Assembly (NCBI RefSeq): GCF_037392515.1
Contig: NC_090291.1
Span: 40,159,501 to 40,223,500, forward strand
DNA length: 64,000 bases
Source of the DNA: Haliotis asinina
Taxonomy: Eukaryota > Mollusca > Gastropoda > Lepetellida > Haliotidae
Reading direction: 5' to 3'
In this document: positions 3,187-18,377 of the stretch, piece by piece
Layout of the letters: each line of letters opens with the position of its first letter
How positions within the stretch are numbered: the first letter of the stretch is position 1
Notes under the pieces: model-generated
The model's database searches: none
Seen by the model: the letters and a program-made list of their open reading frames with translations, nothing else
Told to the model about the DNA's origin: nothing
Program-made: the position numbers and the translations under genes

Positions 3187-3232
<46 letters not shown>

Positions 3233-6200
3233 TGCCATAAAAGGCGACTCAGCTTGTCGTAAGAGGCGACTAATGGGATCGGGTGGTCAGGCTCACTGAC
3301 TTGGTTGACGCATGTCATCGGTTCCCAATTGCGCAGATCGATGATCATGTTGTTGATCACTGGATTGTCTGGTCCAGACTCGATTATTTACAGACCGCCG
3401 CCATATAGCTGTAATATTGCTGAGTGCGGCGTAAAACTCAACTCACTCACTCATCATCATCATCATCATCATGTCCTGAGACCCACAGCTTGTCTTTCAC
3501 TATGGATTGCTTGATGTCGGCAGATAGGGAGGTTGCATTACCCTTACTCCTATGTCCTCATGCAGCATAAAACACAACATTGCAGATTCTGATCTTTCCG
3601 AAACAGCTCATCAAAAATGCCAATTCAACCTATAAATTTGAAAACAAACGCAATGATAAAAAGCCGGCAAAATCAGAGTTCAAACGTTTCACTAATCTTC
3701 CCCAAGCTGTTTCAAAAGCTATTCTGCGCAGTGCTCATAACGCATGCACAGGGAATAGGTTCGCAGAGTATGCCTGCCCAGGGTACAAGGTCATGAGCAG
3801 TAGTCTAAACTTGGTTGTATACACAAACAAGTAATTAATCTATGCGTTATATAAATGAAAAAAGTGTTGATTGTTATAATCACGCTGTGTCACAGAGAAA
3901 ACTCTGGCTTATTCACTGCTACATGTCTGCCTGCCTGTCTACTAATGACAATATGCAATGCACAACTTCAATCATTGACCACATCCAATTTGAAATCAGC
4001 ATCTAAATCAGAAACAAAGACCCAGCTGAGCGTATCAGCATATGAACCGCTGGCCAATGAAGAGGCTTACACATGAGTCCACACCCACAGGCTCTTGACT
4101 GGGTTCGGCTGCTTCTTTTTGAGGAAGGAAAACCCAAGGACAAAATATTGCACTTTTAATTTGCAATTATATGTTTATAATTCTATTTTTTTCTATGTTC
4201 TTAATCAGCAGTACATTTTATATATCATGAATAAGTGATATCTGTGTTTTAATTATTTTTTCTTTTTTGGTTTCATGTTACCTTTTACCCTGCTGATGTT
4301 ACATCAGTGATTGTAAGCATAGAAATGACCAGATTGTTGATGATGATGATGATGATGTGCACGGTAACTATGGTTGCAGTAGCCATGGCGACTGGGACTT
4401 CCTGTGGTGTGACAAGGAATGGGCTAGAGAACATTATGACTGTCTCTACTTCCCAGAGAATTCACGAGTTTCACACTTCCGAAACTATTATGAGGTCTAT
4501 TTACTGAATATTTTGCTGCTTGTATAGTAGTGCCAGTGTGGCTTGGAATCTCATGTTTATTCCTGTCATTGCTGCTTTGTTGCTTTGGTTACAGGAGTTT
4601 GTACATTGGGGGTTATTTTCATTTAGAAAGGTGGTGGTTAGGTCCTATAATGTGGATTAATCTGGCTTGTATTCGAAACTAAAAACAGTTGTGAAGAAAA
4701 CTTAAGCATCTTCCCATCTATTGGTGTGATGTGTGTACTATACACTCAAGTAACATTTACAGAGCAATAACAGAAGTTCGAACTATATGATGCTGGACAT
4801 CAAGCACTACATGTTATGTATATGCATGTGGTTACACCAAATAATGATTTCTCTTCTAACATGGGGAAACCAACGGCAAACCTTATGTAGATAAACTGCA
4901 CCAGGATCATGCATCAAATTGCTGAAAACATGTGCAAATATCATGCATATAAACAGATGAGTTTTGGTGTTAAGTTTTGACAAAGTAACAGGACATTGGG
5001 TCATGTAAGTTTCAGATGTCTGTCTGACCTACTGAAAACTCACAGGACCCACAGAATAAAGTTAAACAGACATTTCAGATTTAACATTTCTCATAATTAG
5101 CATTGAAATTATTAACATTATATAATGACAAACATTGTAAACATATATTATAAACAGTAAAAATGTGTCACATGCCACAAATAACAACTTCAGACAAAGT
5201 TATTGTGATATATTCAGTCAGACACTGAGGTCAGCAGGTTGGGGACTTCTGTCTAACCGTTGGCAAGTCTGCCGGATTTGTCAGAGGGTCAGTCTCAGAC
5301 ACTAATCTTGAACACTGCAGTACCATTAAACAGCATAGAATATTTTACAAATTTTTGTTTAGAACAGTTGCCTTAAGTAAATGGCTCTATTTACACAAGT
5401 GGGTAATCTTTTGATGGGAAGTATATTACCAAATTTGGCATTTTTAATTCTTATTCAGGAATTTCTGCTGACCTATATATTAGACCTGACTTCAAATATC
5501 TGCAGCTGAGCAGTTCTAAATAAATCTCTGTTAAAATGCTTATTTTCTTAATTCAAGGGCTACTTTTCCTCACACTGTTTAATATGGCTAAGCTTGATGC
5601 ACATTGTAATCTAATTCATGTGTATTTAGTAGATGGCTCTGATTTCTTTTGTTGTTATTATAATCTCAAAATGGTTTGAATCTCTAAACAAAATTTAACA
5701 GCTGCTTTCATAGTTTCATTTGGCTACCCATTATTTCATTTTTATGCAAATAATCTTTTCCTCATGAATTACTTCTTTATAGATATAAAATTATGTAGCT
5801 TGATTAAAGTTGGTCTTAGTCATGTACTGACAAGGAAAACAAGTACATGTACATAAAACCAGTAAAACTGGAGAGATTCTTCATCTTGCAAATGATAAGG
5901 CATTGTCTGACAAGGGCTCCTTTTTTTAAGGAATGTGCAAACCATTTAGAACTGTAATCAAAGTTTTCAGATGTTTCCTATGAATGAGAATTAAACTTTC
6001 TTCATTTCAACACATGCATATTTTGGACTTTTGACACTTATCAATCAAAGGCTTATTTTACATGTTTATGGGATGGATCTTTTAAATATTTGAGAGAATT
6101 TTAATGCTTGTTTTCACCTACAGATAAGAATAATAAACTTGCTCACTGATTCTCATAAAGTTTGAATTAATGGCTTTTTCACTCAACTTTGCCATATTTC

Positions 6201-9200
6201 ATCATGTCAGAGGTCTGAACTAACATTTCACATATAAATGAAAAATGAGGGTGATCATTAATCATTTGAAAAGGTCTGATAATATCAAGTACTAATTTCT
6301 CAAAGATTTTCTTGGCATTATTTGACAATCCCAGGAAACACACCTTGGCCTTTTCCTATTGTCTCCTTTGTTGTGCTTCTTGTAAACAATGTTCAGGCCA
6401 AACCAATTCTATTTTTTGTTTTACAGATCTGCTAATCATGTTGTTTTTTTTCACATAAAAAAAAATAAATATTAATTTTCCCCACTCAAAAAACTAAACT
6501 TCTAAAGTTTTTATTGGCCAAACATGTAAACTTACTAGAAACAATTTGGAAGATTACGTTTGGCTTCATATACACTTCGAAAATTGCCAAAAGTAGAATA
6601 CTTTTAGTATTTAAGGAGAATTATACTTTGACTGGTGATTTTTTATTTTTTTTCCCTCTTGCCTTTAGATTTTCTGAGGACAAAAATCCATAAAGCAAGA
6701 CATGAAATTGGTCTGGCCTTATATGAGAGTTATTTCTCTGCAGTGTGCACATGTCGTAGCTTTAGGATCATCCCACATACTGACATTTGCTGAGACAGTA
6801 GAAAAGGGTGCCAGCTTTGGTGAAAATGACAAATAGTAAATGAACTCAATACTTTCATAATCTAAGCCCCAAAGTATTGGTTGAATGTGTAAATGAATTT
6901 CTTTGCTCTCTATACTGCTTTGAACGAAGACTGGATGTGTTCCTGACTTGAGCCAATCACATTTCTGAAATCTTTCCATCGTATGTCTGAAACGTAAATT
7001 TTTGTAACATAAAGGAAAACCCACATGGAACAGGTATATTCTGTAGATGGTATCCATGTTTGGTCTACACTCTCGAATGACCAGGTGTATAATATATCGA
7101 CAGCAGTATAGTAACTGAGGTCTTTTTCCCTTACATTCTGTCTTAATTGTTGCTCATGGGTGTTTTTTACAGTTTTAGTCAATAAATAATTTCGTGGGCA
7201 CAGTGGAGTGGTGTTGACCAAAATGACCTAAAACCAGGGTTTGATTCCCCACATGGGTACAGTGTGTGGAGTCTGTTTCTGGTGTCCACCTCTGAAAACA
7301 ACAGAAAGTCATACTCACTCTTATTGTCATACTCTTTTTATGACAAAATGCATTTCTATCACAAACAAATTTATCTGAAAATACATGGTAGCACCACTGT
7401 CACTAAAAACGTTCTTAACGATCACATATACTCTATGGGGATATAAATACATCAATCATTTCTTGGTATCGTTACAAATGAAACCCCATCATTAAAACTA
7501 CTCATTACGACATTGTCTTAACTTAAATCAACCCTTTTGACAACACTACACAATTATCACCACAAACCAAATTTCAACCAATGAGAGGGGTGCGCCTCCA
7601 TGATGTAATGTGAGGTATACATATGAGGGCAGGTTTAGAAATGCTCTTGCTGGAATGACACACAGCTACTGATGTGTGTTTATTCTAAATTGTAAACCAA
7701 AAGTCACCGTGTTCTGTAATCTGATTGGTCGAAAAACATGATCAAATGGTATTAGATTCCCGGAAACTGAAAGACTATTCACTGCGTATTGACACGTAAA
7801 CAATTGTTTTGTTGTGTCATCAACAGTGGTGACGTCATTAAAATCATATTGTGACGTAAAATCAGAATGACGTCACAAATGAGCAACTCCAGATGCTACC
7901 ATGGGAACCAGCTGAAACGGCCTGCTGATGACACTTCACTGCTGTACCCGTACTCGAAGTAAACGAGTGCAGACAGTAAAACCCCTTGGTTTACTTTTGT
8001 GTTTACAATGTCGATAAACATCATGTGTTGGCCATTTTCCGGGTGTTATTGAGTATTTGAAGCACGGGAATATTTCATTTGAAACCTCCGCCTGACGCCG
8101 TCGGTTCCAAATGCATGCCCGTGCTTCAAATACTCAATAACACCCGGAAATTGGCCAACACATGATGTTTATCTCCTAAGAATCTCTTTAGTGGATGTCA
8201 GTATTTACAGGGTTAAGCTGAAGGGGTGCAAAAACTGGTCTCAGAACTTGGGGCATTATGTTCTCCATCAAACATCAAACCATTCCGTCTATTCCCCAAT
8301 CCAAGCTACCTATGTCTCAGCAGGTGTCAGTATCTGGGATGTGTTGTTGGGGTGGAGTTAGCTATCACTGTGCTGTGTGTGATATCTGCAGTGATGCGGA
8401 GTGGGACATCTACTGGTGTGACGTGTGGTGGATGAGGGAGACGTTTGACCACGCCTACCTTGACGAACATATGAGAATTAACCACTTTCGAAACCACTAC
8501 GAGGTCAGTTCTGGAAAAAAGTGTTCATGTTGCTATGTTTTGATGTAGTGCAGTTTTCTTTTGTTGTAGACATTTATTGTGGACTTTCTTTGTTGACTTG
8601 CATGTTTCATCGAAGAATTAACATCCATTTTGTGTGAGTGCATTGCAGTATGAACAAAAGTGAGTAAATGTTGAATTTTGCGATGCACTATGGATTTCCC
8701 TATGGAATAATTAATGTCTATCAATGTTTCCATCAAGTTAAAAAGATATGCATATCAAACTTTTTCATTCACATGGCTATGAAAGTCAGTCTTGGGGCTG
8801 TTAACCATTGTTTTAGATTAAGCATGGAACTCAATATTTCCTTGTTATGGTGCAAATACTTCAGAATTAAAGATTTTGGCCATCCCAAATTTCAAATACT
8901 ATAGGGGCAAATCTCAAAGACCTTTCTAAATTTTGGACACTAATTACATGTAAAAGTCTGGAGAAATGAATCTATGTCAGCAATATGAGATGAGAATATC
9001 ATGTTCTACTGATGGTCCTGTTGTTAGAATAGGAAAGGCCATACTATTTCTGGCACAATCACTTTTTTGATTGACTTGTGTCCCGTTCCTTTGATCAAAA
9101 GCTTTGAAACTTTAAACTTTATAATTGTATCAGTTATATGTTGGGATTTTCTAGACTTCAACTTCAGACCTTTTAAATTTGACTCGTGAAGGTTCCAGGG

Positions 9201-11708
9201 TAGAATAGGCCTTCAGCATCCCATGCCTGCTATAGAAGGTGACCATGCTTGTTGTAAGAGGCGACTATCAGGATTTGGCAGTTAGGCTTGCTGACTTGGT
9301 TTTCATCGATTAACAATTGCACAGATCGATTCTCATGTTGTTGATCACTGGATTGTCTTGTTCAGACTTGATTATTTACAGACCGCCGTCATATACCTGA
9401 AATATTGCTGAGTGTGGCATAAAACTGAACTCACTCACTTGACTATTAAATTCTTTTTTTAAGTCTTATTGTTTTCAGATTTACTCACTATCAGACAGTT
9501 TTACAAGTTTGAGGCTGAAGGGTCATATGCGCTTGTATATTTTCCCATTTTTGTAACGCTAACCAATTTTTAGTGCACATTAAGCCATTGTTTTCTTTTT
9601 CTGTCTTACACTGATTATCAGTGTTATCCTGACAAAGAGTGATTGAATGATTTCAATGTAATGTTGATGAAGCACGGCTCTTTTGTTTACATGTGTTAAC
9701 TGAATCTGCCAACCCTAAGATAATGAAAATAAAAGAAATCAGAAAAGCATTTACTAATCAAAGTCACTTTCTCACAAAAACAATTTTGTGAATACAACTG
9801 CAAGATTGACTCAAATGGCACTGCTCAAAGAACAAAATGTGAAGAATACTCAATTCTGAAACAAAATCTACAAACCAAAGAGTTGATGAAAGACATGAGA
9901 ACGATGTTGACAAAGTTTGAATCAGTCTGACTGAACGACTTGATGAACCAGTGTCTGATGTTACAGCTGACAAGGAAGAACCTGATGGTGAAGAACCTGA
10001 AGAGACTGAGAAGGCAGATTGAGAGAGAATCAGGGAAACTCGAGGCACAGAAGTATCCTTTAGTTACTTTCACCTACCACAACCACATTGTGCAGCTGGT
10101 AGCCTTAACAGGATTGTGGTGTGGAGCATTCCCAGGGTATGTTGTGACAATAGACATACTGCTTGTAATATCAACCTCTAGACAACAGTGTCTAGAGGAA
10201 GAAAGTATCCAATCACTCACCATTACAAGGGTTGAAACCTGTGAAAATCTGCGTTAGAATCGGTCCTCAGCAAACTCTGCTTGTTGCAAGAACTAAGAGG
10301 ACTATCCAGTGATATTTTTTAACTTTTCAAGGGCTCACTCAAGGATGCTGCAAGTTCTTGTATGCTGTATTCAGAAAAACATATGATTTGTGGACAATTA
10401 TAAGGCAGGTGAAATTACGACCCAAAATATAGATGTCAAACGCTTCCTGCGTATTTCATTATGATAGTATGAAAATAGACACTGGATAATCGTGGATATC
10501 TAGACTATGAATCCTTGTTTGCTAGCATCATACCAATGTGAAGTTTATAGACTCACTCACTCAAATCAGCTGACTTATTGTATGTTTATCATATGTTAAT
10601 TTCTATAAAATATAAAGAGATATTTGTGATGATTTTATGCAGCAATAATTCATCATAAAGCAGTACAACATATTCCTTAATCAGTGCCAGATGTGATTTC
10701 TTCCCTACTACATATGAGCTACCGGTAAGTAGTGGTAATTATCTCATGTTAGAGACTGGACTGGCATGTAACTGCATGCTGTTACTCGTCTTCCCACATG
10801 CGGTATATGGGTGTACTAGTCCACACTGATCTTCCTTACAGTTGCCATAATGTATCTTCAACATATCTCTGCTCCATCAGCTTTGAATGGACTTCTTAGT
10901 CTAGATGCACCTCTATTTGTGGGACTATTCTGGGTGTGACTGCACTCCATCTGTAAGGCATCTTTGTGGTACTGGTGTTTGGCTTTGGAATTAGCTGAAA
11001 TTCTCTCACTTCCTGCAATGGAGTCCCCCACCTAAGCTGCTCTTTGCTGAACTGTTCTGTAATCCGAGTCATACAGAATGACTCTAGGCCAAATGTATTT
11101 GGATGAAAGTCGACACACATTTCTCATGTATCATATGTAGTTATGAACCTTTTCAATGCCGGCTTCCTTCATATCAATCATTTCCTGCATATTACCCCAT
11201 TTCCAAAGTAACTGTGCCAAGTTTACTTTTGAGTTTGTTCAAATCAGTTGTCACTCCATCTTTCAGTTGTACAGAATCTGACTCACTGTCCATGGAATCT
11301 ATCCAGAGATGATCATATGTGTACCATTTCTTTGGCAGTTCACCTCAGCTTATAGTGGTTTCTCTCTGACCATCCAATGAATACTCCTCATTGCGTTGGC
11401 CTTGTTGGTGTTCGCCATTTTGTAATTTCATGCTGTTGACCTCTGTGGCATTTTCCGTAGCACATGCTCTTCCCTTCTTCTTTTTCAGTCTCCATCCCTC
11501 TGCCCTAGGCTTATTCTGTCAGTCCTGTAGTTTAAGCTTCATAATTCCTCCCACTCCGATTTAAGGTCACCTCAAATGCTCTGTGCAATTCTGCATTGGT
11601 CTTGTCAAGGTTCAACAGTGGTGAACATTGTAGGGTGGAAACATGAGATACATGTTCTAGCATCGACATTAATAGTGCCATACTGCGTAACATACATATA
11701 TTTTGTGT

Positions 11709-11755
<47 letters not shown>

Positions 11756-14700
11756 TGTACATTGGATATTGATTTCTCCGCTAACTTGTAGGAACCAACT
11801 CCAAACCTGAACTGTACATGTATCGTGCATCAAATTGCTGCTGTAAAGGTTCCTTTTCAGCAATGTTCACAGATTTTCATCATTTGTGGAACTCATAACA
11901 ATAATCTTTTCAGTGTTACAAATTTGTTTTACAATATATCCGTTCATGTGTAAACAGTACTTTTAAACAGTATTGTATAGTTTGCAAAATGTAGTTTAGA
12001 ACAGCTGGTTAAGTAAGCGGCTGTATTTACACTTGTGAGTCTGCACTTTTGATGGGAAGTATATTGAACCTGCACTTGAACCTGAAAAACATATATCAGA
12101 GTTCTGTTATGATAAAGATCTCTCACATGTTTTATGCAAATTCAGAAGCATGAGTCATAAACTTAAAATTCAACACAACACTAATAAGAAATGTGATAAA
12201 GGTAATTGTAATTTGATATAAGATGAGTATCATTTCTTGCTTGTATGTCCATTTTATTCACAATAACGTTCTTTGTACATTCCTGATTTTTATAATATAT
12301 CCCCCACCAGATCAAAGTTTATACAGTTGCTTGCAATGAAGAATGCAAAACTCCTAAAACATATTGCAACTTATCTTGAACTATATTTACCTTTATGATT
12401 GTAAAGTGTTCATGTGCTATATTTTGCTTATTGAATTGTACTCTTGGTCATGTGACCATAAATAGTGAATGAAGCTCTTCTTCTTCTCCTTCTTCTTGTC
12501 CTTTTTCTTCTTCTTCTCCTTCTCCTCCTCCTTTCTTTTTTTGTCTTCTCGTCTTCTTTCTTCTCCTTTTTTCTTCTCCTTTTCCTCCTTTTTCTCCTTT
12601 TTTCTCCTTCTCCCTTCTTTTTCTTCTTCTTTTTCTTTTTTCTTCTCCTCCTTTTTCTTATTCTTCTCCTTTTTCTTCTCCTTATTCTTCTCCTTATTCT
12701 CCTTTCTTTTCTTCTTTTTTCGTCTTCTCCTTTTTCTTCTCCTTTTCCTCATTTTTCTCCTTTTTTTCTCCTTCTTCCCTTCTTTTTCTTCTCCTTTTTC
12801 TTGTTTTCTTCTCCTTTTCTTGTTCTTCTCCTTCTTTCTTCTCCTTCTTTCTTCTCCTCCTTCTTCTCCTCCTCCTCCTTCTTCTATAGTAATATTTGCT
12901 GTATGAAATATGGCCAGGTTGATGATGTATCAGGGTACCTGGAGAATTTGCTCATTTTATAGACATTTAGTTTTCTTGGCCATGATATTGCTTATGGAAA
13001 CATAAAACAACATTCATTCACTTACAAGTATGACCTGACTTCTGTTCCAGTCTGAGTACCACATTTTCGTGGATGAGTTCCGACGTAACCCAGGATCCAT
13101 CTGGATCATGAAGCCAATTGCCAAGTCACAAGGCAAAGGAATCTTCCTCTTCAAGAGACTCAAAGACATCACTGACTGGAAAAAGGTTTGTGGAATCTGG
13201 TTTGGAACTATTGTCAAAACCATCACTGACTGGAAGATACTAATTATTGAGCAACGGAATGTTTGCTTAATGCTGCGTAAATGTTACCCGTAAGTGAGTT
13301 GTGTTCATTTGCTCACCGTATTTTCTACACACATATTTAGAATTGGGCTGCAACAATTCGGTTCGATTTATTGAAAATCAAATCTGACACCTCAGTTTCA
13401 ATTTTCAATAACCAGTATCACCATTTGAATACCTATTTGAATTAATTACACACAGACAGAACTATATTTGACTTGAGCAGTTTCCAGCACTGAAACAAAA
13501 CAAAATGTGATTGATTGATGTCAGGCTAATTATCCAATGAGAACTGTCGTTAGAAGACATCTTAAAGTTGCCAGTGAATGTCACCTTAACAAAGCTGATT
13601 CTAGAGTTAAATTAAATCTAATGTTTTTACTTGTATGAAAAATTTAATCAAAACTGATCAAATCAAGTGTCCAATATCAGAAATCATATCAAACTTAGGC
13701 CTGGGTGAATCATTGTAGCCCACATTTAGAACAGAGCAACAACAGAAACGTTTTGAGTTTTTTTTCTTTTGTACTGATAGATGACACTGGAATAATCTTC
13801 AGATTCCCTTTTATATAATCTTACCCCAGGGTACAGAGTACCAGCCCATATCAGATGCCAGCAAAGATGGTCCAGAGACATATGTTGTGCAGCGCTACAT
13901 CGAGAACCCATACCTCATAGGTGGACGCAAGTTTGACATCCGTGTCTATGTATTGGTCACCTCAGTAAGATTTTCTTTGACATTTTTGTGTATGTTTTCT
14001 ATTTACCTTGGTTTGGTTTTGTTTCTGCTGTCGCATCGGGGGCGGATACAGAAAGGGAGGTACACATTATTGAGGAAAGAGGGGAAGGGACTTCATTTTC
14101 ACACAAGTTTCAATGGCCATTGAACAAAATTTCAGGACAAAAAGACCTGCAGGCCCCATCCCTCTGGATTCTCCTATGCATATCTGACAGATTCAGAGGC
14201 GGACATGATGGTTGTATATGAAATGGTGATGAACAAAATACAGTACAAAGTGGTGTTTAGTCTCTCTTGCTCCTTCCACTGAATTCCTTCACTCACTCAT
14301 CAACACGCCCTGTACTGGTAACACAGTTGTGTCTCCTAACCATGAATGAAATGCGGTGTGGTGTACTAAAACAGACGGTATACTTGGGGGGGGTGACTTT
14401 CCCAAGAGATTTGTTTGCAAACAGCTTTTACTGCCCGTCAGAATAGTATCCATACACACCAACACTGAATGTTGGCTGTTACCTGTGACTAGCCAATGTA
14501 AGTTGCTGTATAACTATATATATGATGTATTTCAGTACAACCCTCTACGTGTTTGGCTGTACAGGGATGGATTTGCTCGCTTCTCCAACACAAGATTTTC
14601 TCTGGAATCTATAGAGAACAATTGTATCCTTCGAAGTTGAGTCTTCTCTAAACTGTCAGTTTAAACCGAGTCTTCCCTCTCAGAATTAAGAGTCTTCCCT

Positions 14701-17700
14701 TTCAAGCCTTAGTATTCCCATTCGAACCTTAGTCTTTCCAGAAGTACCTTCTGAAGTACTTTCCATCAGACCCAGGACACCCAAGCCAAGATCAAGAACA
14801 GAGAGTTTTCCTAGTCAGACAAGATACACTTCACCACCAGACCAGAAAAACTTCCCAGTCAGTCCAGAGAGTTTTCGTTATCAGACTTGAGACACTTCCC
14901 TCTAGATACAAGAGTGAACATGGTCATACCAAAGAAATTCTTTTCCAGATCCACAATTTGCAATAGAGTATCAAGTCTCTGACCTACAGCACCAATTAGC
15001 TTAAATACAGATTTGTAATAGCATCTTACCCAAGGATAGACAGTGTCAACAGAGACAAACATGTAGTGTTATTACCACTTAATTGGATACATTTTTGTTT
15101 TAAATATCATATCAAAATATTGTCAGCACTAACAAAGCAAAGACAGGATGTTGATAGTAGAGGCTCATAAAAGGATGATTCTCTAACAAAAATAGGGACC
15201 AAACTCAACTCCCTATAAAGAGCCATCTAAGTCTTCCTTGACAAGTCAAAAAGATGTTCACCTGACAAATGTGGCCATCCAGAAGACAGCCCCTGATTAC
15301 GATCCTGAGAAGGGATGTAAATGGTCAACACAACAACTGCGTCAGTACTTGACAGCAAGACACAAACGAGAAGATGTGAGTTCTTGTCATCTTCAAGCAA
15401 CAAAATCCCACAGACCTGATATATGTTGAATTTCGGCCTTATTTTAGTAACCTAAAAGGAGAGCTTACTTAACCTCTAACTGTTCTAAATCCATGGCTAA
15501 TATTCATATCACACCCTATGATATTTCATCTTTGCCCCATGGTGATTCTGGACTGAAATATGTTCCCCGGCAACTATAAGACAGCAACATCCTGCTTCAA
15601 GACTGGACTTACTGGATTAGGTGGTCAGAACTGTATGTCAACTCCAGACAAACAACTCCTTAATGTAAAATGTGACCTATGTGAGACAACTCTGTTAAGA
15701 ATACGGAAGCTGCTTACCTCCCTTGTTTACAGGTAGAGAAGATGCTGAACCAGATGCAAGAGGTGTTTATACTGAGCCTACAAAGTACACAGAAGATCAT
15801 GATCAATGACAAGCACTGCTTCGAGCTGTATGGCTATGACATCCTACTGGATGCCAAACTCAAACCGTGAGTGATTTGTTAAATACATGAGTTCATGATT
15901 TTGTGTATGGCTGTGTCTTATCACATCACTACTTGGTACATCTTGAGATGAAGATTCAGCTGAAAAGTCTAGAATCAGACAGTATGAGGAATACAGAAAT
16001 ATCGAGAATATGTTCCAGTGAGTTTACATTTTAACTGTGTGTTGGCTATTTCAGCTGGCTACTGGAGATCAATGCATCGCCTTCTCTCACAGCCAGCAGT
16101 AAAGAAGACTATGACCTCAAGTTTGGAATGCTCAATGATGTCATCAATGTCCTTGACATGGAAAGTAGGTGAGGAGGAAAACAAGGTTAACAATAAAAAG
16201 CTTCATCATAAACAAGTCATGCTATAGGTCATGGATAATTATCATCCATGAAGGTGGGCATCATGAGAAATAGGGATGTTCATTCTCTTTCATAAAAGTG
16301 AGAGCTTGTGAAGGATCATGGCTTGTGTATCATCTTGCTGTAGTTTATCATAGTTAATGATCCTTTAAATTATCATGGATTTTAGACATATTCTCAGGGT
16401 TGCCATCTGGATAAAACCAGGGAAGTTTCATGACCCCTTTGGAATCAGCATTTTCCTTCTTACAGTGTTGATTTCCAAATCTGTTACATGGATGATAGTA
16501 ATGCTCGAGGGTACAGTTCAGATATAAAACTACAGGGCTTTTTCAAAGTAGTCAAGAGGACTAGTGCAAACGTTATTACACGTTATTATTAAACGTTATT
16601 ATTATTATGGTCTTGACAGTTTGTGTAGTTAGTCCATTTGAGAAATGGAAAAGTGATCACTTTGTTTTGTTTGGTTTCAGTTTGTAGGAATAGTAAAGCA
16701 TCTAGAACTGATTCTGATTTTATGGCCCCAAGATGATACTGGTCAGTGAGATTTCAGTTTTCACTTGCCCTCCACACAAGTTAGAAGTCTTGGGCTCATA
16801 GACTAGCATGAATGTTGAAGTCTGTAATTACACTGATGTAATTACACTTAGTTGACTGTTGTACAGACTGACAGGGAAGGAGAAGCGTATCGGTGGGTTT
16901 GACTTCATCTGGGACGATGGCCCCGTCTACTCCGATGAGTCCATCAACTCTGACAGCATGATCAACAGCATGGGCACCACCATCAACTCCTTCTTAGGTA
17001 GGTACATTGTGGGTGTTCCATGTATCCCCAGGATTAAGTCGTAGCTCACCTTAGTGATGGTTTAGCAAACTCAGAACTGAGATTTCAATGCCTCTTTGGA
17101 TGGTAAATATCCTTGGTGTCATTGTACAAAGTGATTTTAGCGCTAAGGTGACCATGACTAACACACCTTAACATAGACGTATGGTAGTCTTAGCGCTAAG
17201 GTGACCATGACTAACACACCTTAACATAGACGTATGGTAGTCTTTGTGCTAAGGTTGTTGTGTACAACGACTCCTTGGTCTTGATCATTCAGCGATCTTA
17301 TTTTACAGCTTAGTTATTTCAACACTCGCTCATTCACAATGAATTTACTTGTGAACACCCAGCTTCAGGTTCGTCTTGAGCAAAGTATGCTTACCATAAG
17401 AGGATCAGGTGGTCAGTTAAATAACTGGAATACTGCTGAGTGTAGTATTAACAGCAAACAAACACAATAAATTTGATCTGTCCAGCTTGGGACTTGGAAC
17501 TGTCCCAACACAGTGACAGAGAATGTACCTTCTTGAACAAAGGCTTCAACTGCTAGGCAACATCAGCTCCACCAGACACAGACAAGGACGGACATGATGG
17601 ACCAATGACAGCACACAGAGTGTCTCTGTAACATGCAGCCTCTTGAACCACAAGGCTACCGCACTGCCCACCTGTTACATCTAGTGTGACAAAGTTATAT

Positions 17701-18377
17701 GTATGTGCTCACACTATCTACTATGGTTTTTATCACTTCTAGGGGTAGGCAATAATACCAGTTAACTGGTATGTTGCAATTCAAACTTCACAATATGATA
17801 TATTGCTGTACACTTTTTGCAAACCAGTTTACCTGATACAATCAGCAGTTTCCTTGACCATGCTCAGTGATTTTTTGTGATGTATTTCCTTTATGTTTAG
17901 TGGTCAAATAATTGCATTTGCATGACGTGTAAACCATGTAAATCAAAAGTTAGATTGGTACCGGCACACTTTGATAAACAAACCCAAATGGCGCTGCAGA
18001 CGCTTTTTCTCATGTTCTAAACTTTAGAGCGAAGTCTTAAATTTGGAAACATTTTCAGGTGATCTCTTGCACAATCACATCTGAGTCATGACAGTGTCCC
18101 CAGGCATTGCTCCAAAAGAAAGGGAACAGAAATTACATTACCTTAACCATGTGTTACACTGTCACAATATATTGCAGTAGTCATTGCAATACACCAGCAA
18201 TATATCGCAATATGAAACTTTTGGGCAATACCCAACCCTAATAACTGCTGGTGTATATCTTTTCACCACCATTATCTCCTGTATGAAGCATGGATGAATG
18301 TTACAGGTTGTCATAATGAACGTCGTCAAAACCTGAAGCAGATCTACCAGACAGCCAGCGTGACGAAGAAGCCATGA
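2096..18377 (+). CDS. TTLL9: Tubulin polyglutamylase TTLL9, complete gene span (exons listed separately)
   Basis: Thirteen coding exons join in phase to 427 aa (with exon 3b) or 428 aa (with 3a), close to the roughly 440 aa of vertebrate TTLL9 as I recall it. The family uses an ATP-grasp fold to ligate glutamate to tubulin tails; TTLL9 acts in cilia and flagella. Visible family motifs, with approximate residues: [19 protein letters not shown] (72-90), [16 protein letters not shown] (about 134-149), [19 protein letters not shown] (about 186-204), [11 protein letters not shown] (about 214-224), [11 protein letters not shown] (about 238-248), [11 protein letters not shown] (about 308-318) and the metal-binding stretch [11 protein letters not shown] (about 324-334). 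The start is ATG at 2096, giving [12 protein letters not shown]; it follows a good acceptor, so an upstream non-coding exon is likely. The stop is TGA at 18375-18377. No transmembrane or signal sequence is seen. TTLL1-type enzymes are the nearest alternative, but the 'FARFSNTRF' and '[19 protein letters not shown]' stretches fit TTLL9 better. Confidence 0.93.
2547..2620 (+). repeat. Fragment of dispersed element A in TTLL9 intron 1
   Basis: 'gattgggtggtcag' and what follows is a short, diverged piece of the family defined at 3238-3452. Confidence 0.4.
2785..2871 (+). CDS. TTLL9: TTLL9 exon 2
   Basis: Acceptor ctgcag, donor gtgagt. Encodes [20 protein letters not shown] then RPGWQEVT, the N-terminal TTLL9 segment. 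Leaves GG, which needs one T from the next exon to make Gly; both versions of exon 3 begin with T. Confidence 0.92.
3187..3231. repeat. (CAT)n microsatellite
   Basis: About 15 units of tca/cat, directly beside a dispersed element. A shorter (atc)n run sits on the other side at about 3450-3471. Confidence 0.95.
3238..3452 (+). repeat. Dispersed element A (SINE-like), near full length
   Basis: Reference copy for the family. It has 'aaggcgactcagcttgtcgt', 'gggatcgggtggtcaggctc', 'ctggattgtctggtccagac', 'tatttacagaccgccgccat', then a 3' tail ending 'aactcactcactc'. Strand is given with the (ACTC)n tail at the 3' end. No coding capacity; length and tail fit a SINE. Confidence 0.85.
4209..4290 (+). 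repeat. Copy 2 of the repeat at 1934-1996
   Basis: 'acattttatatatcatgaat' and 'ctgtgttttaattatt' match the copy before exon 1. Ends about 90 bp before exon 3a. Confidence 0.6.
4380..4494 (+). CDS. TTLL9: TTLL9 exon 3a (alternative to 3b)
   Basis: 115 bp. Acceptor ggttgcag, donor gtctat after TATGAG. Encodes [14 protein letters not shown] ... SHFRNYYE, 38 residues. It aligns with exon 3b at W-D-x-x-WCD-x-x-W, R-E-x-x-D and the end HFRN-x-YE. No stop or frame break, and same entry and exit phase as 3b. The (gat)n run at about 4335-4356 lies just upstream. Likely a mutually exclusive exon; it could be a silent duplicate, but its intact frame argues against that. Confidence 0.8.
4800..5430. repeat. 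Diverged repeat, partner at 11755-12070
   Basis: 'atcatgcatcaaattgctg' and 'tcttttgatgggaagtatatt' recur in the same order near 11830 and 12050, with the spacing between them different. Probably an old dispersed element with an internal indel. Confidence 0.5.
5431..6449. other. AT-rich intron 2/3 sequence, no feature seen
   Basis: Intronic between exons 3a and 3b; no repeat, exon or RNA that I can support. Confidence 0.5.
6450..6720. repeat. Dispersed repeat, partner at 25190-25452
   Basis: Shares 'attaattttcccc', 'tttgactggtgat' and 'ttttctgaggacaaaaatc' in the same order with 25190-25452. Unnamed old element. Confidence 0.65.
7225..7310 (+). repeat. Element B (tRNA-derived SINE), truncated
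   Basis: 'agggtttgattccccacatg' contains a B-box-like GTTTGATTCC, then 'tctgtttctggtgtcc', as in other copies of this family. Confidence 0.6.
8013..8173. mobile_element. Hairpin MITE-like inverted repeat
   Basis: Left arm starts 'gataaacatcatgtgttggc' and the right arm ends with its reverse complement at 8173. Arms are about 55 bp with a loop of about 45 bp and are almost perfect. It ends about 220 bp before exon 3b. A single-arm relative lies at 60868-60905. Confidence 0.85.
8392..8503 (+). CDS. TTLL9: TTLL9 exon 3b (alternative to 3a)
   Basis: 112 bp. Acceptor atctgcag, donor gtcagt after TACGAG. Encodes [20 protein letters not shown] ... INHFRNHYE, 37 residues, the version closest to vertebrate TTLL9. 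Starts with T and ends on a codon boundary, exactly as 3a. If 3a were spliced to 3b, the first codon read here would be TGA. Confidence 0.9.
9215..9440 (+). repeat. Dispersed element A, diverged copy
   Basis: Has 'gttgttgatcactggattgt', 'tatttacagaccgccgtcat' and the (ACTC)-type tail. In TTLL9 intron 3. Confidence 0.8.
9967..10052 (+). CDS. TTLL9: TTLL9 exon 4
   Basis: Acceptor ttacag, donor gtatcc. Encodes [20 protein letters not shown] then ESGKLEAQ, a basic helix conserved in TTLL1/TTLL9. Leaves AA for the next exon. Confidence 0.9.
10691..10724 (+). CDS. TTLL9: TTLL9 exon 5 (34-bp small exon)
   Basis: Found by searching for the expected joining peptide. Acceptor gtgccag, donor gtaagt. 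The first base completes Lys; then [11 protein letters not shown], matching the family's FFPKTF-type motif. In phase on both sides (AA + A; ends on a codon). Too short to show as an ORF. Confidence 0.88.
10860..11560 (-). mobile_element. Possible decayed retroelement gag-like remnant
   Basis: The minus strand reads in broken frames through a Lys/Glu/Gln-rich stretch and then [20 protein letters not shown], which resembles polyprotein fragments common in mollusc genomes. Several stops and frame changes; no RT motif is visible. Could be a non-coding coincidence. Confidence 0.35.
11703..11751. repeat. (GT)n microsatellite
   Basis: About 20 GT units in TTLL9 intron 5. Confidence 0.95.
11755..12070. 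repeat. Diverged repeat, partner at 4800-5430
   Basis: Shares 'gtgcatcaaattgctg' and 'ttttgatgggaagtatatt' with the partner copy. Confidence 0.5.
12465..12887. repeat. 420-bp polypyrimidine tract in TTLL9 intron 5
   Basis: Almost pure C/T on the plus strand, built from cttctt, ctcctt and cttttt words with only a handful of A or G. The Leu/Phe/Ser and Lys/Glu/Arg reading frames across it are artefacts of composition. Mirror-type purine-pyrimidine tracts of this length can form triplex DNA in vitro. Confidence 0.92.
13051..13185 (+). CDS. TTLL9: TTLL9 exon 6 (ATP-binding loop)
   Basis: Acceptor tgttccag, donor gtttgt. Encodes [18 protein letters not shown] then [19 protein letters not shown]. 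The lysine and glycine-rich loop is the nucleotide-binding element of the ATP-grasp fold. A 15-base copy of the exon end (catcactgactggaa) recurs in the intron near 13220. Confidence 0.95.
13346..13723. mobile_element. Possible hAT-type MITE
   Basis: 'gggctgcaacaattcggttc' at the left and 'gaatcattgtagccca' at the right are roughly inverted; the interior is AT-rich. Terminal match is imperfect. Confidence 0.35.
13830..13964 (+). CDS. TTLL9: TTLL9 exon 7 (catalytic core)
   Basis: Acceptor taccccag, donor gtaaga. Encodes [20 protein letters not shown] then [26 protein letters not shown] is the conserved TTLL core motif. Phase 0 on both sides, 45 codons. Confidence 0.95.
14536..14623 (+). CDS. 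TTLL9: TTLL9 exon 8
   Basis: Acceptor tttcag, donor gtatcc. Encodes [20 protein letters not shown] then FSLESIENN and leaves T. Degenerate 'gagtcttccct' repeats follow in the intron from 14640 to about 14900. Confidence 0.93.
15254..15375 (+). CDS. TTLL9: TTLL9 exon 9
   Basis: Acceptor caaaaag, with a weak pyrimidine tract, donor gtgagt. T + AT makes Tyr; encodes [20 protein letters not shown] then [24 protein letters not shown] is a TTLL hallmark. Confidence 0.93.
15733..15866 (+). CDS. TTLL9: TTLL9 exon 10
   Basis: Acceptor tttacag, donor gtgagt. Encodes [20 protein letters not shown], then [18 protein letters not shown], and leaves CC. FELYGYD is a conserved family motif. Confidence 0.95.
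16055..16168 (+). CDS. TTLL9: TTLL9 exon 11 (metal-binding motif)
   Basis: Acceptor atttcag, donor gtgagg. CC + C makes Pro; encodes [20 protein letters not shown] then [17 protein letters not shown]. The E-x-N pair of LLEINASPS coordinates Mg in ATP-grasp ligases. Confidence 0.95.
16867..16997 (+). CDS. TTLL9: TTLL9 exon 12
   Basis: Acceptor gtacag, donor gtaggt. Encodes [20 protein letters not shown], then a Ser/Asp/Asn-rich stretch ending INSFLG. LTG-x-EKR-x-GGFD matches the TTLL9 C-terminal region. Confidence 0.93.
17137..17255. repeat. Two 62-bp direct repeats with TTAGCGCTAAGG core
   Basis: 'ttagcgctaaggtgaccatg' to 'gacgtatggtagtctt' occurs twice back to back. The palindrome TTAGCGCTAA is also seen in the hairpin at 54303-54422. 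Confidence 0.85.
17394..17455 (+). repeat. Fragment of dispersed element A
   Basis: 'aagaggatcaggtggtcag' followed by a shortened tail 'ggaatactgctgagtg'; the middle is deleted. Confidence 0.5.
17741..18241. mobile_element. Possible MITE with short inverted ends
   Basis: 'taggggtaggcaata' at the left and 'ggcaatacccaaccctaat' at the right are inverted, and 'aatatattgc' words flank both sides. Sits in TTLL9 intron 12. Confidence 0.4.
18307..18377 (+). CDS. TTLL9: TTLL9 exon 13 (last coding exon)
   Basis: Acceptor tgttacag. G + GT makes Gly; encodes [20 protein letters not shown] then KP and TGA at 18375. C-(I/H)-N-(D/E)-R-x-x-Q matches the family's tail. Phase is consistent with exon 12. Confidence 0.9.

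Follow-up and report, generated by a model that had tools for sequence, protein, structure and literature searches.

Two homologous, probably mutually exclusive exons in a TTLL9 gene of the abalone Haliotis asinina

A 64,000 nt stretch of the Haliotis asinina genome (contig NC_090291.1; C12:40159501–40223500 of a 1.14 Gb assembly; hereafter the window, whose positions are used as coordinates throughout) carries a gene, TTLL9-A, which from its sequence belongs to TTLL9, a family of axonemal tubulin polyglutamylases. Between exons 2 and 4 this gene has two neighbouring internal exons, 3a and 3b, and in all likelihood they represent a genuine, old mutually exclusive pair, as known from genomic sequence and predicted proteins. 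An earlier, sequence-only reading of this DNA had already interpreted them as mutually exclusive. At the level of DNA and predicted protein that interpretation is borne out: the exons are homologous, adjacent and phase-locked, single use of either is productive, and the swap is present in predicted proteins.

Gene structure and reading frame

The gene model completed here has 13 coding exons on the + strand, from an ATG exon at nt 2096 to a stop codon at nt 18377:

2096–2130, + strand: TTLL9-A coding exon 1, with the ATG; ends GG/gtgagt
2785–2871, + strand: exon 2; ends GG/gtgagt, its phase leaving two bases
4380–4494, + strand: exon 3a, 115 nt, 38 residues, a-type; acceptor cag/T, donor GAG/gtctat
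8392–8503, + strand: exon 3b, 112 nt, 37 residues, canonical b-type; acceptor cag/T, donor GAG/gtcagt
9967–10052, + strand: exon 4, followed by an apparent U12-type intron
10691–10724, + strand: exon 5
13051–13185, + strand: exon 6
13830–13964, + strand: exon 7
14536–14623, + strand: exon 8, followed by an apparent U12-type intron
15254–15375, + strand: exon 9
15733–15866, + strand: exon 10
16055–16168, + strand: exon 11
16867–16997, + strand: exon 12
18307–18377, + strand: exon 13, with the stop codon

In the tree, TTLL9-A groups with annotated TTLL9. Exon 3b resembles the corresponding parts of H. cracherodii P0002 and human P0116, and is of the canonical type. The 3a form of the window protein differs from P0001 of H. 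rufescens at 13 of 428 residues and the 3b form differs from P0002 at 11 of 427; these two database proteins match the TTL domain (PF03133) at 1.3e-84 and 2.4e-86, respectively.

Coordinates, lengths, acceptors, donors and reading frames of the two exons were rechecked in the sequence and are as the earlier reading gave them. Exons 3a and 3b share a phase, differ in length by a multiple of 3, are free of in-frame stops and have GT-AG sites. Its claim that each exon, spliced singly, gives an intact protein also holds (428 aa for 1-2-3a-4 onwards, 427 aa for 1-2-3b-4 onwards), as does its claim that double inclusion reads TGA, which is seen right at the 3a–3b join. A point absent from that reading is that skipping both exons, with exon 2 spliced to exon 4, gives GGC TGA. 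Since both lengths are 1 modulo 3, exactly one of the two exons is needed for protein. This frame lock is, by itself, no evidence that either exon gets used.

The exons are also related by descent. Their peptides are 49% identical, and the similarity (tblastn E = 4.8e-13 in 74 kb, i.e. the window plus 10 kb upstream) is beyond chance, so that the homology proposed earlier is confirmed. Between 3a and 3b no whole known exon peptide was matched, a de novo exon search of that 3.9-kb intron not having been made.

Exon 3a might instead be mainly an off-switch (a poison exon), whose regulated inclusion along with 3b leads to a stop and decay and lowers TTLL9. The TGA produced by joint inclusion and the weak donor of 3a (see below) are in keeping with this, but an off-switch has no need for an open, homologous peptide conserved in place across gastropod subclasses, and protein models containing only the a-type segment exist, which makes this explanation unlikely.

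Distribution and age of the a-type exon

Exon 3a has counterparts in other gastropods. Residues 13–112 of the 3a form were used as query in a protein search, which gave 494 matches, the best 120 of which were listed; the database is clustered at 90%, and a-type isoforms of other species may be hidden. The best match, P0001, is annotated as H. rufescens TTLL9 'isoform X2' and has 37 of the 38 residues of 3a (Y to F); outside exon 3, 12 of its 390 positions are unlike those of the window protein. The next match was P0002, H. cracherodii TTLL9, with 3b. The a-type motif FPENS is present in four of the 120 listed proteins: P0001, P0007 (Biomphalaria glabrata X2), P0010 (Aplysia californica X2), and the unnamed P0014. 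The last comes from a frame of 439 aa that runs without a break on a contig of 2,876 bases, taken to be a spliced transcript because TTLL9-A of the window spans 16 kb. The earlier reading had proposed a comparison with other gastropods, and for conservation the answer is positive: the 3a type is found in predicted proteins of H. rufescens, B. glabrata and A. californica.

Two TTLL9 proteins are predicted in Biomphalaria glabrata, P0007 (a-type) and P0029 (b-type), and these share, without a single difference, the 43 residues that precede the exon-3 segment and all 352 that follow it. The segments themselves differ (TNDWDFCWCDKDWLNNPDECNFFPENSKVSHFLNFFE, 37 residues, vs 39 residues), and both lengths keep the frame. 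Among the predicted proteins of this one species, each exon type is seen without the other. It is highly improbable that 3a is an unused relic of the duplication, since although its donor and pyrimidine tract are poor, only 1 of its 38 residues is changed relative to H. rufescens, it is recognisable in heterobranchs, and it occurs in annotated isoforms.

A genome-wide search with 3a gave one match each to 3a, 3b and exon 3 of a second gene, TTLL9-B, and two further weak matches, both with stops (E 0.25, 0.62), these counts being lower bounds. TTLL9-B is on the same chromosome at a distance of 11 Mb, which could suggest that 3a is an assembly error or a stray piece of that gene. Such an origin is barely credible, because TTLL9-B exon 3 differs from both (56% to 3a, 54% to 3b), the genome search gave a single copy of 3a, and the same exon is present in the same H. 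rufescens protein.

Over 35 aligned codons of 3a and 3b, synonymous sites are saturated (synonymous divergence, dS, undefined by NG86) and nonsynonymous divergence (dN) is 0.44. When 1.5 kb on each side of the two exons was compared, the sole strong match was a shared interspersed repeat, with copies 77–89% alike that flank the exon 3 region:

3232–3451: interspersed repeat, first copy
9227–9439: interspersed repeat, second copy

Given the saturated synonymous sites and a flank match limited to the repeat, the duplication must be old. About 220 nt downstream of 3a there is also a 21-nt stretch (nt 4715–4735) that matches a portion of exon 3b at 90% identity and can be translated as IYWCDV; with E values of 0.11 and 0.02, it is either a chance match or what remains of a third copy of exon 3.

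For a tree of the exon alone, the exon 3 segments of 41 database proteins were aligned with window 3a, window 3b and TTLL9-B (44 rows, 37 columns). The five a-type peptides (four from the database plus window 3a) form one group, with an SH-aLRT (Shimodaira–Hasegawa-like approximate likelihood ratio test) value of 90.9 and an ultrafast bootstrap (UFBoot) of 97. Forcing Haliotis 3a to group with Haliotis 3b changed the likelihood by −20.3 log units (approximately unbiased (AU) test, p 0.011), forcing heterobranch a with heterobranch b by −18.5 log units (AU p 0.037), and applying both constraints jointly by −30.3 log units (AU p 0.0026). In a tree of the remaining protein, the four a-type database proteins and the window gene are all placed among gastropod TTLL9-A (UFBoot 100), apart from molluscan TTLL9-B, which forms its own group (UFBoot 100). 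H. rufescens belongs to the Vetigastropoda and Biomphalaria to the Heterobranchia; from the monophyly of the a-type and the AU rejection of separate duplications, the pair is therefore older than the split between these groups. The exon tree gives no firm point of attachment for the a-branch within TTLL9.

The competing explanation, that a-type exons were duplicated independently in each lineage and have grown alike, draws on the small size of the exon alignment, just 37 columns, and on the Shimodaira–Hasegawa (SH) test, which keeps a separate heterobranch origin (p 0.07); both also count against the preferred reading. The three AU values, however, and a ten-residue a-type signature, FPENS[RK]VSHF, present in all five a-type sequences, leave independent origins with little chance. 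A single tandem duplication of exon 3, before the vetigastropod–heterobranch split, would account for the pair.

Splice sites and the choice of exon

Splice sites were scored for 21 U2-type donors of TTLL9-A and TTLL9-B, and for 25 exon starts. By U1 pairing, the 3a donor is the weakest of the 21 (−4.2 kcal/mol, next to −4.5 for exon 7 and −6.6 for 3b), and its pyrimidine run is the shortest of the 25 (4, with five others having 5), although these differences are slight, the set scored is small, and exon 13 is poorer than 3a by pyrimidine fraction. The weak donor and short pyrimidine run suggest use of 3b by default and of 3a by activation. Under such a scheme, 3a would be chosen where an activating factor is present, and transcripts carrying both exons or neither would be lost to nonsense-mediated decay.

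Among the known ways of enforcing exclusivity, frame failure on joint inclusion is the one that applies to the predicted transcripts, with decay as its presumed second step. Steric hindrance, which was judged by a donor to branch site distance of under 50 nt, is unlikely given the 3,897 nt of the intron between 3a and 3b (nt 4495–8391), a branch site near the donor not having been sought. A conflict between U2- and U12-type sites was rejected, as none of the donors of exons 2, 3a and 3b matches the U12 pattern and the sites beside both exons are U2-type; U12-type donors sit after exons 4 and 8 of TTLL9-A. Four further elements near the exons were considered:

3187–3232, + strand: (CAT)n tract in intron 2, complementary to nt 4335–4357; role speculative
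3451–3472, + strand: second (CAT)n tract in intron 2; role speculative
4335–4357, + strand: (GAT)n tract, 23–45 nt upstream of 3a, at the expected place of the pyrimidine tract or branch site
8013–8173: foldback element, 218 nt upstream of 3b, whose 59-nt arms are 97% complementary; folding energy −111 kcal/mol

The (GAT)n tract can pair with the two (CAT)n tracts of intron 2, though a docking/selector role in competing RNA pairing is speculative, and exact 18-base matches of the CAT/GAT kind occur at four places in the 64 kb, three of which are these tracts. The foldback was ruled out as a cause of exclusivity because it is a high-copy element: there were 2,020 first-look candidates in the genome, and among the 40 scored were 39 full-length copies besides that of the window, 98–99% identical. 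It is thus a recent insertion rather than an old control element, from a family that was probably active recently.

Several further observations weigh against a mutually exclusive pair. The a-type accounts for only 4 of the 120 listed homologues (from 494 matches), and two narrow searches of 40 residues gave no new a-type proteins (2/2 and 1/1 candidates, all already known). All TTLL9-A entries aligned from caenogastropods (four) and limpets (two) are b-type; in these groups the a-type exon is either lost, unannotated or masked by clustering, and because the 90% clustering may hide isoforms, its absence there is weak evidence. Both isoforms annotated in a single Haliotis species were not seen (P0001 of H. 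rufescens has 3a, P0002 of H. cracherodii has 3b). The Biomphalaria proteins P0007 and P0029 begin with unlike N-terminal ends (29 and 12 residues), and this pair may therefore differ in the first exon as well. Annotation software may itself favour models that preserve the frame. Finally, AlphaFold predictions were too poor for use, mean pLDDT (predicted local distance difference test) being 42.5 for P0001 (36 rows) and 43.0 for P0002 (33 rows).

Other features of the two genes and their surroundings may be mentioned briefly. Intron 4 (nt 10053–10690; donor gtatccttt, branch site ttccttaat) and intron 8 (nt 14624–15253; donor gtatcctt, branch site ttccttgac) of TTLL9-A look U12-type by the consensus. 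In TTLL9-B (C12, approximately 51.4579–51.4614 Mb, minus strand), intron 8 retains a gtatcc donor and intron 4 is U2-type. The acceptor and first ~30 nt of TTLL9-B exon 3 recur in a minisatellite just upstream of the real exon 3, consisting of about 40 copies of 78 bp and then some 4 copies of a 66-bp variant. The repeats are possible decoy splice acceptors. Their unit length is a multiple of three, and a frame other than that of exon 3 is open for 1,129 codons. Four bivalve TTLL9-B proteins (P0034, P0048, P0059, P0071) have a low-complexity insertion of some 62–65 residues close to where exons 2 and 3 meet, which is also where the exons are swapped in TTLL9-A; Pinctada P0028 is without it. 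Upstream of TTLL9-A, an open frame on the minus strand (nt 680–1042) contains the motif GLPMGSPLSPL and resembles a Penelope-type reverse transcriptase fragment.

Protein consequences and comparison with known systems

Exon 3 specifies residues 42–79 (3a form) or 42–78 (3b form), mostly ahead of the Pfam TTL match, which starts at residue 69 in P0001 and 67 in P0002. The remaining protein, including the ATP-grasp part, is the same in both forms. An alignment with TTLL6 puts exon 3 opposite the N-terminal WTLYWTD...INHFPG stretch, and carries no information on contacts. Column 35 of the segment, the H of HFRNHYE, is F or Y in all five a-type sequences and H in 37 of the 39 others (Y in two). 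The swap would exchange 37–38 N-terminal residues, including the H of the nearly fixed HFRNHYE, and leave the ATP-grasp catalytic core unchanged; lying at the N-terminal edge of the enzyme, such a change would probably tune its binding of tubulin or of partners.

Variation in tubulin glutamylation is generally attributed to the choice among TTLL enzymes. A more tentative proposal is that a splice switch has been kept since before the vetigastropod–heterobranch split, and that ciliated cells or sperm might use it to write different glutamylation by choice of exon, not of enzyme gene. A conserved swap inside one enzyme would offer a natural pair of TTLL9 proteins differing in 37–38 residues, permitting a direct test of the role of this segment in partner binding, tubulin choice or activity, and an old pair with a weak and a stronger donor plus a frame lock would be useful for studying long-lasting exclusivity. 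TTLL9 is placed under axonemal glutamylation in a passage of one review (PMC12376688), and a title in the reference list of PMC10883266 describes FAP234 as essential for axonemal TTLL9 localisation in Chlamydomonas.

The earlier reading, which knew of no such pair for TTLL9, stands in part. The a-type isoforms are already known from public annotation; the account of the exon pair may be new, no description having been found in literature on TTLL9 and mutual exclusivity, which is a weak test judged partly by titles. The annotated X2 isoforms of H. rufescens, A. californica and B. glabrata have an a-type segment in the same place, as predictions only. Single-type TTLL9 proteins (human P0116, Patella P0003, Saccoglossus P0046) are of the 3b type, with HFRNHYE and the remaining protein conserved as in TTLL9-A, and the vertebrate, hemichordate, annelid and ctenophore entries among the 120 listed include no a-type segment.

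The closest general parallel is found in the mutually exclusive clusters of Hatje et al. 2017 (PMC5740500). In that paper, joint inclusion is given as causing frame failure in 60% of human clusters, and many clusters as having one dominant exon. A word search showed that TTLL, tubulin, mollusc and gastropod are absent from its main text. The TTLL9-A pair differs from the clusters described there in belonging to a gastropod tubulin polyglutamylase and in being known from sequence, not RNA. Like them, it consists of adjacent, internal, homologous exons in the same frame with GT-AG sites, whose lengths differ by a multiple of three and whose joint inclusion would be non-functional.

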